A stretch of DNA of 64,000 bases, from positions 3,720,001 to 3,784,000 of the forward strand of contig NZ_CP109427.1 of NCBI RefSeq assembly GCF_036250695.1, written 5' to 3'. The notes beneath the pieces were generated by a model. That model ran no database searches and was not told the DNA's origin. It worked only from the letters and a program-made list of their open reading frames with translations. Source of the DNA: Streptomyces sp. NBC_01497. Its GTDB lineage: Bacteria > Actinomycetota > Actinomycetes > Streptomycetales > Streptomycetaceae. Within the stretch, counting starts at the first letter, position 1, and every line of letters starts with the position of its first letter. Positions 56,260 through 59,114 of this stretch are shown one piece after another. A program made the translations under genes and the position numbers.

Positions 56260-56514
56260 TCACCCTCCTGCGAACGGCGGGAGCACCTCGACCGTGCCGC
56301 CCTCGGCAAGCCGTACGGTCTCATGTCCGCGGGTCCCCACGGCCAGGCCGTCGACGAGGAACGAACACCGTTCAAGGACGCGTACCAGGTCACCGGGGTG
56401 TTCCGCCCGGGCGCGGGCCAGCGCGTCAGCCAGGGTGTCCGCCGCGTAGGGCTCCTCTGCCACGCCTGCGGCCGCCTTCGCCGCGGCCCAGTAGCGGATC
56501 GTGCCCGCTGCCAT
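56260..56514 (-). CDS. MoaD/ThiS-family sulfur-carrier protein
   Basis: An 84-residue ubiquitin-fold protein ending in PPFAGG, the Gly-Gly C-terminus needed for thiocarboxylation. VEVLPPF is the usual strand before the tail. These proteins donate sulfur to molybdopterin, thiamine or other products. Eleven bases upstream of the large membrane gene and 63 bases after the hydrolase stop. A link to the sulfurtransferase farther down the same leftward set is plausible. Confidence 0.9.
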   Translation of the reverse strand: MAAGTIRYWAAAKAAAGVAEEPYAADTLADALARARAEHPGDLVRVLERCSFLVDGLAVGTRGHETVRLAEGGTVEVLPPFAGG

Positions 56515-56577: not shown

Positions 56578-57735
56578 TCACTGCCGCCTCTCCGGCACCC
56601 CGGTCCCGGCCCCCGGACCGGCGCCGGGACCGGCCCCGCCGTCGCCCCCGGGGGCTGTCCCGGCGCCCGGAGCGGCCCTGTCCGCACGGCCCGCCGCCCG
56701 GTCGTCCGTCCCCGCATCCGCATCCGCGTCCGCACGCTCCGTGACCCAGGCGGCGATCCGGGCGAGCAGCGGCTCCTCGGCCGCGTTCTCCGCGTGTCCC
56801 ATGCCCGGCTCGATCCACAGTTCCGCCGCCCCCTCGGCGGCCGCCGCCGCGAGCATGCGCGGATGGTCGAGCGGGAAGTACGGGTCGCGGTCGCCGTGCA
56901 CGACGAGCAGCGGCACGGGCGCGATCAGGGGGACCGCGTCGACCGGCGGGAGCGGCACCGGGTCCCAGTCGTACTGGTGGATCCGGGTGTGCAGGCCGAC
57001 CCGGCCGACGACGCGGCCGAACGGCCGGGTCACCACCCAGTGCAGGCGGCGCATCGGAGCCGTGCCCCGGTAGTACCAGCGCGCGGGCGAACTGACGGAG
57101 ACGACGGCGTCCGTCCGGGCGTCGGGCCGGTCCCGGTACAGGGCCGCGTGCCGTACGACGACCGAGCCGCCCATCGAGAACCCGATGGTCACCACCCGCC
57201 GGTGGCCGAACGTCCGGGCCCAGCGCACGGCCGCCGCCAGGTCCAGCACCTCCCGGTCGCCGACGGTGGAGCGGCCGCCCGACGCCCCGTGGCCGCGGAA
57301 GGAGAAGGTGACCACCGCGGCACCGCGCGCGAAGACCGCGGCTGCCTGCCGGATGGCGGGCCGGTCGACACTCCCGGTGAATCCGTGGGCGATCACCACG
57401 ACCGTCCGGTCGGCGGGGTCGCTGCGGTGCGGGTGATCCGCCCCCTCAGTAGGACCGGTCCGGTGAACGCGATCCGTCCGATGGGTGAGATCGGTCCGGT
57501 GGGTGGACGGGGCCGCGCCGGCGGGGGCGATCCCGCCGACCGGATTCCCGCGGTCGGCGGGCGGCCCCGGAGAGGCGCCGTCCGCCGCGCCGTCACCTGC
57601 GACATCCGCCGTACACGGCTCGTACATCGCCTCGATCCGGACGGTGTCCTCCGTCGTGAGGACGGTCCGCACCACACCCGGCGCCCCGGCGGGTACGGAT
57701 GATCTGCGGGATTGGCCTCCTGACACAGCACGCAT
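56578..57735 (-). CDS. Alpha/beta-hydrolase
   Basis: A 385-residue protein. The hydrolase domain begins near residue 95 (VVIAHGFTGS; RGHGASGGRST), has the nucleophile elbow GFSMGGSV, and later VHGDRDPYFP and GMGHAEN give the Asp and His. The N-terminal 85 residues include THRTDLTHRTDRVHRTG-like repeats and the C-terminal 50 are Gly/Ala-rich. ATG at 57735 gives MRAVSGGQSRRSSVPAG, which looks native. Divergent from glnR. Confidence 0.85.
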   Translation of the reverse strand: MRAVSGGQSRRSSVPAGAPGVVRTVLTTEDTVRIEAMYEPCTADVAGDGAADGASPGPPADRGNPVGGIAPAGAAPSTHRTDLTHRTDRVHRTGPTEGADHPHRSDPADRTVVVIAHGFTGSVDRPAIRQAAAVFARGAAVVTFSFRGHGASGGRSTVGDREVLDLAAAVRWARTFGHRRVVTIGFSMGGSVVVRHAALYRDRPDARTDAVVSVSSPARWYYRGTAPMRRLHWVVTRPFGRVVGRVGLHTRIHQYDWDPVPLPPVDAVPLIAPVPLLVVHGDRDPYFPLDHPRMLAAAAAEGAAELWIEPGMGHAENAAEEPLLARIAAWVTERADADADAGTDDRAAGRADRAAPGAGTAPGGDGGAGPGAGPGAGTGVPERRQ

Positions 57736-57747
57736 GTGGGCTATTCT
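57720..57747 (+). promoter_or_regulatory. Promoter upstream of glnR
   Basis: CTGACA (57720-57725) and TATTCT (57742-57747) are spaced by 16 bp. Transcription would start near 57754, directly before a perfect terminator hairpin, and proceed toward the coupled ORF and glnR. Confidence 0.6.
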
Positions 57748-57758
57748 GCTGGGGAAGA

Positions 57759-57789
57759 GGACCCGGCGATGCAGCCACCGGGTCCTTTT
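57759..57789 (+). terminator. Promoter-proximal intrinsic terminator (attenuator-like)
   Basis: GGACCCGG (57759-57766) and CCGGGTCC (57778-57785) form a perfect 8-bp stem followed by TTTTGCGTTTT. No gene ends here: the upstream hydrolase reads away. It must therefore stop or attenuate a transcript that starts at the promoter 57720-57747. Confidence 0.75.
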
Positions 57790-57933
57790 GCGTTTTCTGC
57801 TTCTTGTTACAAGCAGGTGAACGGATGGAACAACGACACCACAGCGGTGCCGGTGGCGCCCCGCAGCAGCCGGCGCCGCCTCACAGCACCGAAGCATTGC
57901 CCCCATCGCAGGGACCGAGGAGGAACCGACGTC

Positions 57934-58107
57934 ATGGGCAAGCGATCCACGGACCATCACCGTCCGAACCGTCCACACGCTCCGGGGACCGGCCGTCCGC
58001 ACGGCAGCCCGGGGGACGGCGCGTGGCGCCCGCACCGCGCGGCCGTGCGGCACCGGCGGCGGCCGGACGGCGCCCGGCCGGCGGCCGAGGCGGGTGAGCT
58101 GCGATGA
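57934..58107 (+). CDS. 57-residue ORF translationally coupled to glnR
   Basis: A small ORF with a strong ribosome binding site (GAGGAGGAA) and an ATG at 57934. The product is rich in His, Arg and Pro ([20 protein letters not shown], then [18 protein letters not shown]) and has no known relative. Its stop overlaps the glnR start by ATGA, so ribosomes ending here can restart on glnR. It may be a real small protein or only a translation-coupling leader. Confidence 0.55.
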
Positions 58108-58808
58108 GTGCCCTGCTCCTGCTCACCAACGCCCTCCAGCCGTCCGCGGAGGTCCTGCCCGCCCTGGGTCTGCTGCTGCACACCGTCCGTGTGGCACCCG
58201 CCGAGGGCCCGGCCCTCGTGGACACCCCCGGCGCCGACGTGATCCTCGTCGACGGCCGCCGCGACCTCCCCCAGGTGCGCTCGCTGTGCCAGCTGCTGCG
58301 CTCCACGGGCCCCGGCTGCCCGCTGCTCCTCGTCGTGACGGAGGGCGGCCTCGCCGCCGTCACCGCCGACTGGGGCGTGGACGATGTCCTGCTCGACACG
58401 GCTGGACCCGCCGAGGTCGAGGCCCGGCTGCGGCTCGCCATGGGCCGGCAGCAGATCACCTCCGACGACGGCCCGGCCGAGATCCGCAACGGCGACCTGT
58501 CCGTCGACGAGGCCACCTACAGCGCGAAGCTGAAGGGCCGGGTCCTGGACCTGACCTTCAAGGAGTTCGAGCTGCTGAAGTACCTGGCCCAGCACCCGGG
58601 CCGGGTCTTCACCCGCGCCCAGCTCCTCCAGGAGGTCTGGGGCTACGACTACTTCGGCGGTACGCGCACGGTCGACGTCCACGTCCGCCGGCTGCGCGCG
58701 AAGCTCGGCCCCGAGCACGAGTCCCTGATCGGCACCGTCCGCAACGTCGGCTACCGGTTCGTCTCCCCCGAGAAGCCGGAGTCCAGCGACCGGATGGCGA
58801 TGGCGTAG
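58104..58808 (+). CDS. glnR: Global nitrogen regulator GlnR
   Basis: A 234-residue OmpR-family orphan regulator. The receiver domain (1-120) keeps D50 in [10 protein letters not shown] but lacks the acidic pair usual at positions 8-10 (LLTNALQPS), as known for GlnR, which works as a phosphorylation-independent dimer. The winged helix (about 135-228) includes [20 protein letters not shown] and ends [13 protein letters not shown]. It activates glnA, amtB and other nitrogen genes and interacts with PhoP control. Hairpin after the stop. Confidence 0.96.
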
Positions 58809-58829
58809 TCACCACCGGCTCCACGACAC

Positions 58830-58869
58830 ACAGGACGGGCCCCGCGCATCCGGCGGGAGCCCGTCCTGT
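58830..58869 (+). terminator. Terminator of glnR
   Basis: ACAGGACGGGC (58830-58840) pairs perfectly with GCCCGTCCTGT (58859-58869) across an 18-nt loop, 22 bases after the stop. The remaining gap to 59114 holds the LacI promoter only. Confidence 0.8.
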
Positions 58870-59114
58870 CGTGTGTGCGCCCGGTGACCAGCGTGCCCGC
58901 CGTCCTCGAACCGGTCGCGGTCCGCACCTGTCGCGTCGGGGCGCTGAGCGGTCGGCCACTGGATCGTCGGACGGGGAGCGTCGGGCCCGCGCACCGCGTC
59001 CGCCGAGGACCGGAGAGGGCCCGGGACGCGGCCCGGCCGAGCTGCCCCGCGGACCCCGTCGGACAGCCGGAAGTACTGGCGTGGGCCCGGGTCATCCCGC
59101 GTAGACTCCCGTGC

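Follow-up and report, generated by a model that had tools for sequence, protein, structure and literature searches.

A conserved terminator-like leader element upstream of glnR in Streptomyces and other Actinomycetes

In the window analyzed here, a stretch of 64,000 nt from Streptomyces sp. NBC_01497, glnR is preceded by a promoter that is followed almost at once by a terminator-like hairpin with a T-rich tail. This arrangement raises the question of why a structure that resembles an early stop signal lies just behind the predicted transcription start of a regulatory gene, and whether it is a peculiarity of this genome or a regular part of the glnR transcript. The features of the locus are as follows:

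57720–57725, + strand: −35-like hexamer CTGACA, read from the sequence
57733–57741, + strand: conserved CATGTGGGC before the −10, read from the sequence and seen in the conservation profile
57742–57747, + strand: −10 hexamer TATTCT, from the sequence and a promoter scan
57754–57755, + strand: predicted transcription start, placed solely by its position 7–8 nt after the −10
57755–57789, + strand: terminator-like hairpin, outer stem 57755–57766 with 57778–57789, from folding, a covariance model, and pair counts
57765–57776, + strand: short apical hairpin GGC-GATGCA-GCC, whose hexaloop opens with a purine and has G as its fourth base; a hairpin of this kind forms the element's core outside the family
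57786–57797, + strand: T-rich tail TTTTGCGTTTTC; the consensus in relatives is about TTTYGTGYTTTC
57803–57823, + strand: a second block of conserved leader sequence, CTTGTTACAAGCAGGTGAACG, which by eye resembles a GlnR/PhoP box
57918–57923, + strand: ribosome binding site AGGAGG (in GGGACCGAGGAGGAACC), ten bases before the ATG of the small ORF
57934–58107, + strand: small ORF of 57 codons, ATG to TGA, whose stop overlaps the glnR ATG at 58104 (ATGA)
58104–58808, + strand: glnR, 234 aa, with domains PF21695 (GlnR_1st) and PF00486 (Trans_reg_C)

The glnR leader in Streptomyces sp. NBC_01497

The −35-like CTGACA and the −10 TATTCT are separated by 16 nt, and a promoter scan returned this as the sole sigma-70-like site between positions 57200 and 59000, where 0.1 would be expected, in agreement with the promoter proposed in the first-pass annotation of this DNA. 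In a set of 119 leaders, in which this locus is counted three times and ten leaders were fetched by the element itself, the −10 reads TATTCT in 105, TATTGT in ten, and TATCCT in four. The conservation profile places the best-kept stretch in Streptomyces in the run from CATGTGGGC through the −10 and the stem to the tail; conservation of the −35 hexamer is far below that of the −10 and of the CATGTGGGC preceding it. The distance between the −10 and glnR ranges from 111 to 362 nt in the 119 leaders, with this locus representing the maximum, and is 444 nt in one leader of another genus.

The core of the hairpin is an 8-bp stem, GGACCCGG/CCGGGTCC (57759–57766 with 57778–57785), and four A-T or G-T pairs lengthen these eight GC-rich pairs to 12 bp; the foot of the stem lies near +2 of the transcript as predicted. 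The fold has an energy of −24 kcal/mol (z = −3.4), and none of 200 shuffled sequences folded equally well. A simple terminator scan gave no hit here because the loop measures 11 nt and the scan permits loops of 3–8 nt; the GC-rich stem is nonetheless followed directly by a T-rich tract, as in an intrinsic terminator. Seven of the ten bases behind the 8-bp stem (57786–57795) are T, or five of ten if the stem is taken as 12 bp (57790–57799); part of the TERMITe report gives 3–4 U within the first 10 nt behind Streptomyces terminator hairpins (PMC12207403). A terminator-like hairpin just past the expected start had been described from the letters alone, and the fold, the shuffles, and the conservation reported below bear this out. 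The covariance model described below (R1) has one strong match in this genome (E = 3.5e-12) and a next best match at E = 0.6, i.e., the search found no strong second copy of the hairpin. Weaker second hairpin matches occur elsewhere in a few genomes (G213:C1:282892, G176:C88:223450, and G072:C4:1051266). The second conserved block sits shortly past the tail in Streptomyces leaders (GTTGTATACGAAGCGGGAAAC, GTTGTTACGGACGGATGAAC, or similar); by eye, it resembles a binding site for GlnR or PhoP/AfsR, or else a further hairpin.

The gene upstream of glnR encodes an alpha/beta hydrolase (Pfam) and is divergent from glnR; homologues were identified in 73 of 79 loci, each time in divergent orientation. 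Since, in addition, no + strand gene was seen to end at the hairpin at this locus, the first-pass observation that no upstream gene ends there holds, and we rejected the idea that the hairpin is the terminator of an upstream gene. Near glnR, the − strand (56260–56514) encodes a small protein ending in VEVLPPFAGG, which we take to be MoaD-like; its homologue is upstream and divergent in 64 of 79 loci and, by eye, a sequence similar to this gene directly neighbours glnR in some families. A long inverted repeat (58818–58876; CACGACACACAGGACGGGC...GCCCGTCCTGTCGTGTGT, by eye) follows glnR and suggests a transcript with glnR as its only gene.

Conservation and structure of the element

The covariance model R1 comprises 52 positions and 12 pairs. 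Its training sequences, 86 distinct members of the Streptomyces set, match it by construction. R1 matches were found in 383 of 392 Streptomyces genomes (E ≤ 1e-4) and in 120 of 121 genomes of the family, representing 16 of 17 genera (E ≤ 0.01), nearly always as a single match in both searches; a 151-bp DNA query matched 143 of 150 Streptomyces genomes. The nine Streptomyces genomes lacking an R1 match include one that also lacks a glnR match (G050) and one in which glnR lies at a contig end (G112); in G037, glnR is present and an R1 match is absent. When leaders were retrieved by the GlnR protein alone, the element was present before glnR in all 107 that could be read (79 of 80 plus 28 of 29 loci), and the two misses (L009 and L099) represent one contig cut 71 nt before glnR. 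Ten further leaders (L089–L098) had been retrieved through the element itself and were excluded as evidence for its presence. The hairpin is thus conserved across Streptomyces glnR loci, a check that the first-pass annotation had proposed, and the leader element at glnR is real, widely conserved, and reaches far past this genome.

Outside the family, R1 matched 27 genomes (E ≤ 0.01). As read from the coordinates of a glnR search in the same genomes, 17 of these matches lie immediately 5′ of glnR, including all 11 with E ≤ 2e-5; the remaining ten are weak (E of 7.5e-5 or worse) and lie elsewhere. The glnR search matched 140 genomes, of which 11 belong to the same genus, leaving 129 non-family genomes; from these, a class sample of 91 loci from 37 non-family families was picked by hand, and it includes nearly all genomes with an R1 match at glnR. 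Three loci (L287, L289, and L294) were dropped since no glnR start was obtained for them, and six loci with weak start matches (L265, L281, L283, L284, L286, and L290) were kept. Many of these non-family leaders share a common plan, in which the −10 is followed by a short 5′ arm and then by the hairpin GGC-RNYGNN-GCC with its 3-bp stem. An insert of 0 to about 44 nt on the 3′ side separates this hairpin from the other arm, behind which there is often a T-rich tail near TTTYGTGYTTTC. The hairpin GGC-RNYGNN-GCC occurs 18–28 nt past a −10 in 29 of 91 loci and 14 of 37 families; 200 dinucleotide shuffles averaged 0.05 loci and never exceeded one. As searched, the pattern is absent from 23 of the 37 non-family families, in one of which (f16, L172) R1 still finds the element. 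In another family (f18; L240, L241, L243, L244, and L292), the hairpin was not found, but the loci still share a −10 within CTCCGCTATCCT, roughly 120 nt upstream of glnR. A good stem followed by a T-rich tract was missing, by script or folding, in seven of the 29 loci (L248, L258, L270, L276, L238, L239, and L250).

Folding of single leaders gave z-scores from −3.8 to +1.4, and the case for an RNA structure rests on sequence comparison rather than on single folds. Within the 86 sequences of the Streptomyces set, 98.5% of stem cells hold standard pairs, mostly through one-sided changes; two-sided changes occur in two pairs (four cells), a number also reached by ten of 500 shuffles, so that covariation within Streptomyces alone is modest. 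In 34 R1-aligned rows, 93.5% of outer-stem cells are paired, a value to be read with the alignment having been fitted to the structure; sliding the partner strand in these structure-fitted rows lowers pairing to 22–75%. Two-sided changes were found in six of the 12 outer-stem pairs of the 34 rows, and none of 500 shuffles reached six. Compensated outer stems are found, for example, in L269 (AGAACTCGG/CCGAGTTCT), L271 (TGGGTCTGG/CCAGGCCCA, then TTTTTGTTTTTG), L261 (CGGGTTCGG/CCGGGCCCG, then TTTTCGTTT), and L291 (GGGACTCG/CGGGTCCC, then TTTTGC).

Pairing between the hexaloop and the tail was also evaluated. This pairing is the best register, with 84.5% of cells paired in the Streptomyces set and 83% over four positions in set A3. 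Shuffled tails reached the observed pairing in 0 of 1000 cases in the closely related Streptomyces set A1, and with p values of 0.07, 0.02, and 0.01 in set A3 for four, five, and six positions, respectively. In the 15 non-family rows, every shuffle reached the four-position score, and six positions gave p = 0.32. A hexaloop–tail pseudoknot is a possible lead, unsupported outside the family.

The small ORF in front of glnR

At this locus, a 57-codon ORF with a strong ribosome binding site and a stop overlapping the glnR start (ATGA) is present just as first annotated. A survey of 121 distinct leaders, nearly all from Streptomyces, identified a small ORF whose stop overlaps the glnR start in 86, with ATGA in 84 and TGATG in two. 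Only ORFs ending on the glnR start were accepted, but no leader among the 121 was left with a frame ending elsewhere. Lengths take 18 different values from 16 to 57 codons, and 51 of the 86 ORFs have 18 or 19 codons (MGERTVHDRPTTQAGGRR-like). AGGAGG precedes all 86 small ORFs, 64 of them in the form GAGGAGGAACC. The other 35 leaders carry the ribosome site directly at glnR, as GAGGAGGAACC in 34 and as a variant in L114. On a quick tree of glnR DNA, the forms with and without the ORF require at least seven changes.

The third codon position is not the most variable position of the small ORF (codon-position diversity), which argues that the peptide is not the conserved feature, and a conserved peptide was rejected on these grounds. 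The frame and its overlap with glnR look selected in this comparison and the peptide does not. The proposed check on conservation of the ORF therefore gave a divided result, in that the stop/start overlap is kept through 18 lengths in 86 of 121 leaders and the codon pattern expected of a conserved peptide is not seen. Two further suggestions of the first-pass annotation do not extend to the relatives. The His/Arg/Pro-rich 57-codon form is not general, being the longest of the 86, with 18–19 codons as the usual form; in addition, translation of glnR does not generally depend on the upstream ORF, as 34 of 121 leaders carry the same ribosome site directly before glnR, making the coupling dispensable.

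Possible mechanisms and relation to known systems

The explanation that we favor, and consider somewhat probable (about 0.58), is that expression of glnR relies on polymerases reading through a terminator close to its promoter, with translational coupling added in most Streptomyces. Under this model, which we infer from comparison of the leaders, glnR would be transcribed from the conserved −10 at 57742, and the first ~45 nt of the transcript would fold into the terminator stem, with the short hexaloop hairpin at its tip and the T-rich tract behind it. This promoter-proximal intrinsic terminator would stop part of the polymerases after ~35–45 nt; the remaining polymerases, a presumed read-through fraction, would continue to give the glnR mRNA. 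In most Streptomyces, ribosomes would load at the site of the small ORF and, if the ORF is translated as predicted, pass to glnR through the stop/start overlap. What we observed directly is the sequence of the element, its conservation and covariation, and its position behind the −10 and ahead of glnR; the start site, the termination event, the proportion of read-through, and the translation of the small ORF are predicted features of this model. The mere presence of the hairpin seems compatible with expression. Part of a study in S. venezuelae describes a 264-bp glnR-promoter fragment, amplified with a primer that begins with GTGGGCTATTCT and carries GTGGGCTATTCTCCT, which gave detectable functional GlnR-Flag (PMC3087709) and for which growth on nitrate is stated there as data not shown; this fragment starts just before the −10 described here and should therefore retain the hairpin.

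Control by attenuation had been suggested for this locus. The hairpin is indeed conserved and compensated; however, the classical form of attenuation is unlikely, since an upstream antiterminator has almost no room. Like known attenuators and leader RNAs, such as riboswitches and the Streptomyces trpL, leuL, and thrL leaders treated in part of PMC8079986, the glnR leader has a terminator-like hairpin and a T-rich tract between promoter and gene. In contrast to those systems, the glnR hairpin begins at about +2 with no sensing segment or leader peptide before it, its small ORF lies downstream of the hairpin, and glnR encodes a regulator. With almost no RNA upstream of the stem, switching of the trp or riboswitch kind is improbable. 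The small ORF is also not a trpL-type leader peptide, as it starts 137 nt past the end of the tail and contains no conserved codon run.

Another group of RNAs resembles the tip of the hairpin. ANTAR targets are described in part of PMC3369931 as tandem 3-bp stems with hexanucleotide loops, in which positions 1 (A) and 4 (G) are important for binding. Like the RNAs bound by ANTAR proteins (i.e., the targets of EutV, NasR, and AmiR), the glnR element has a 3-bp stem and a hexaloop with G at position 4 and A or G at position 1, and its hexaloop likewise adjoins a terminator at a nitrogen gene (PMC3369931). Position 4 is G in 86 of 86 sequences of set A1 and 34 of 34 of set A3, and position 1 is split between A and G, 70 to 16 in set A1 and 16 to 18 in set A3; the class pattern search, which had a purine and a G fixed at these two places of the hexaloop, is no test of them. 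Unlike ANTAR targets, the glnR leader has a single hexaloop hairpin, which forms part of the terminator stem and is not an alternative to it. Of 112 leaders in the Streptomyces set, 18 (16%) contain another hexaloop with the A1/G4 signature, as compared to 13% by mononucleotide shuffling, and five of 29 other loci have one at scattered places; a dual-hairpin ANTAR motif was rejected because the second hexaloop is not above chance. All 61 Streptomyces genomes searched have at least one PF03861 (ANTAR) match, a permissive finding rather than specific evidence; ten of the 61 have exactly one ANTAR-domain match.

Given its conserved hexaloop, the element could plausibly be recognized by a protein or another ligand. 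A more specific version, which we regard as tentative and somewhat unlikely, is that the hexaloop is bound by a trans factor that, in response to a nitrogen signal, determines whether transcription ends near +40 or proceeds into glnR; this factor might be an ANTAR-type protein in a new single-hairpin mode, or another RNA-binding protein. If this were the case, an RNA sensor present in many Actinomycetes families would set the supply of GlnR after initiation, and coupled translation would be an added gate in most Streptomyces.

The hairpin could instead act as a 5′ stabilizer or ribonuclease barrier that shields the glnR mRNA, with the tail being incidental. A stem at about +2, which leaves almost no free 5′ end, would suit this role, and so would the tracts that are poor as terminators in several families, e.g., in L170 (TTGCGCGTTTGAGG) and L250 (GGGGTGTCC), as well as in L233. 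However, a stabilizer requires neither a tail nor a specific hexaloop, and the T-rich tail is among the best-kept parts of the element in Streptomyces and recurs in most rows outside; we therefore judge this role to be unlikely. A distinctly unlikely explanation is that the hairpin ends a separate trans-acting RNA of ~40 nt and that glnR is transcribed from a second, downstream promoter. The −10, hairpin, and tail would form a complete short transcription unit; the distance to glnR varies in Streptomyces leaders (111 to 362 nt), and a long leader could hold a second promoter. Yet the element stays before glnR in the leaders read. In L170 (G384), the leader spans 64 nt from the −10 onward, and only 7 nt separate the end of the model match from the glnR ATG; another promoter would not fit there, so that the hairpin must belong to the glnR mRNA at this locus. 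A second promoter would also be cramped in L234–L236, where the −10 lies just 85–95 nt before glnR.

It seems very improbable that the conserved DNA is mainly an operator (e.g., for PhoP, AfsR, or GlnR), with the hairpin as a by-product of its dyad. Binding of PhoP, AfsR, and ScbR to the glnR promoter region is reported in part of PMC10704036, and the tip GGC-N6-GCC is a dyad; the loop, however, is not symmetric, and a stem held by G-T wobbles and compensated pairs, which pair across inserts of varied length, behaves as RNA. Finally, a terminator-like structure before a gene could shield glnR from transcripts arriving from upstream, but this is hardly tenable for a hairpin that follows a conserved −10 at an almost constant distance, with the upstream hydrolase divergent in all 73 loci (of 79) where it was found.

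Translational coupling through overlapping stop and start codons (ATGA) is a known kind of arrangement. As in other coupled genes, a strong ribosome site serves the upstream frame and the start of glnR overlaps its stop; in contrast to known coupling, the upstream frame is short, is not conserved as a peptide, and came or went several times. The autoregulated glnR promoters of mycobacteria also control glnR expression, but by protein–DNA contact at initiation (PMC10704036). The passages of this review on control of glnR name DNA-binding proteins such as PhoP, AfsR, and ScbR and do not mention a leader element (PMC10704036).

The element is absent from Rfam. A search of the window region with E up to 5 gave one overlapping match, isrO, which scored 14.3 bits where the cut-off is 42 (E = 4.3), and the other matches lie elsewhere, none near its gathering score; a search of ten relatives with E up to 0.5 gave two unrelated matches. 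Among reports on Streptomyces transcript boundaries and reannotation, the main texts of PMC8079986, PMC12207403, PMC8914203, PMC8269248, PMC8780764, and PMC6742748 do not mention glnR, and PMC4895711 names it once, in a figure legend. The definition of premature ends in the main text of PMC8269248 covers only those >70 bp from the start, so that a 40-nt product would be missed. A literature search, which was incomplete and from which we do not claim absence from print, found no description of a glnR leader. Our analysis thus describes a conserved element in the glnR leader that is joined, at the level of the genus, by a coupled ORF; the mechanism by which it would act is the somewhat probable reading given above.

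The leader bears on the question of what governs GlnR itself in actinomycetes; part of the review cited above speaks of an unknown kinase for GlnR (PMC10704036). A selected 5′ RNA structure present in many families makes control of GlnR testable, as the stem, loop, tail, and ORF can each be changed separately. Since GlnR affects antibiotic production (PMC10704036, in part), the leader may also serve as a practical handle for expression. The conserved leader points to a possible extra layer of control over nitrogen metabolism.
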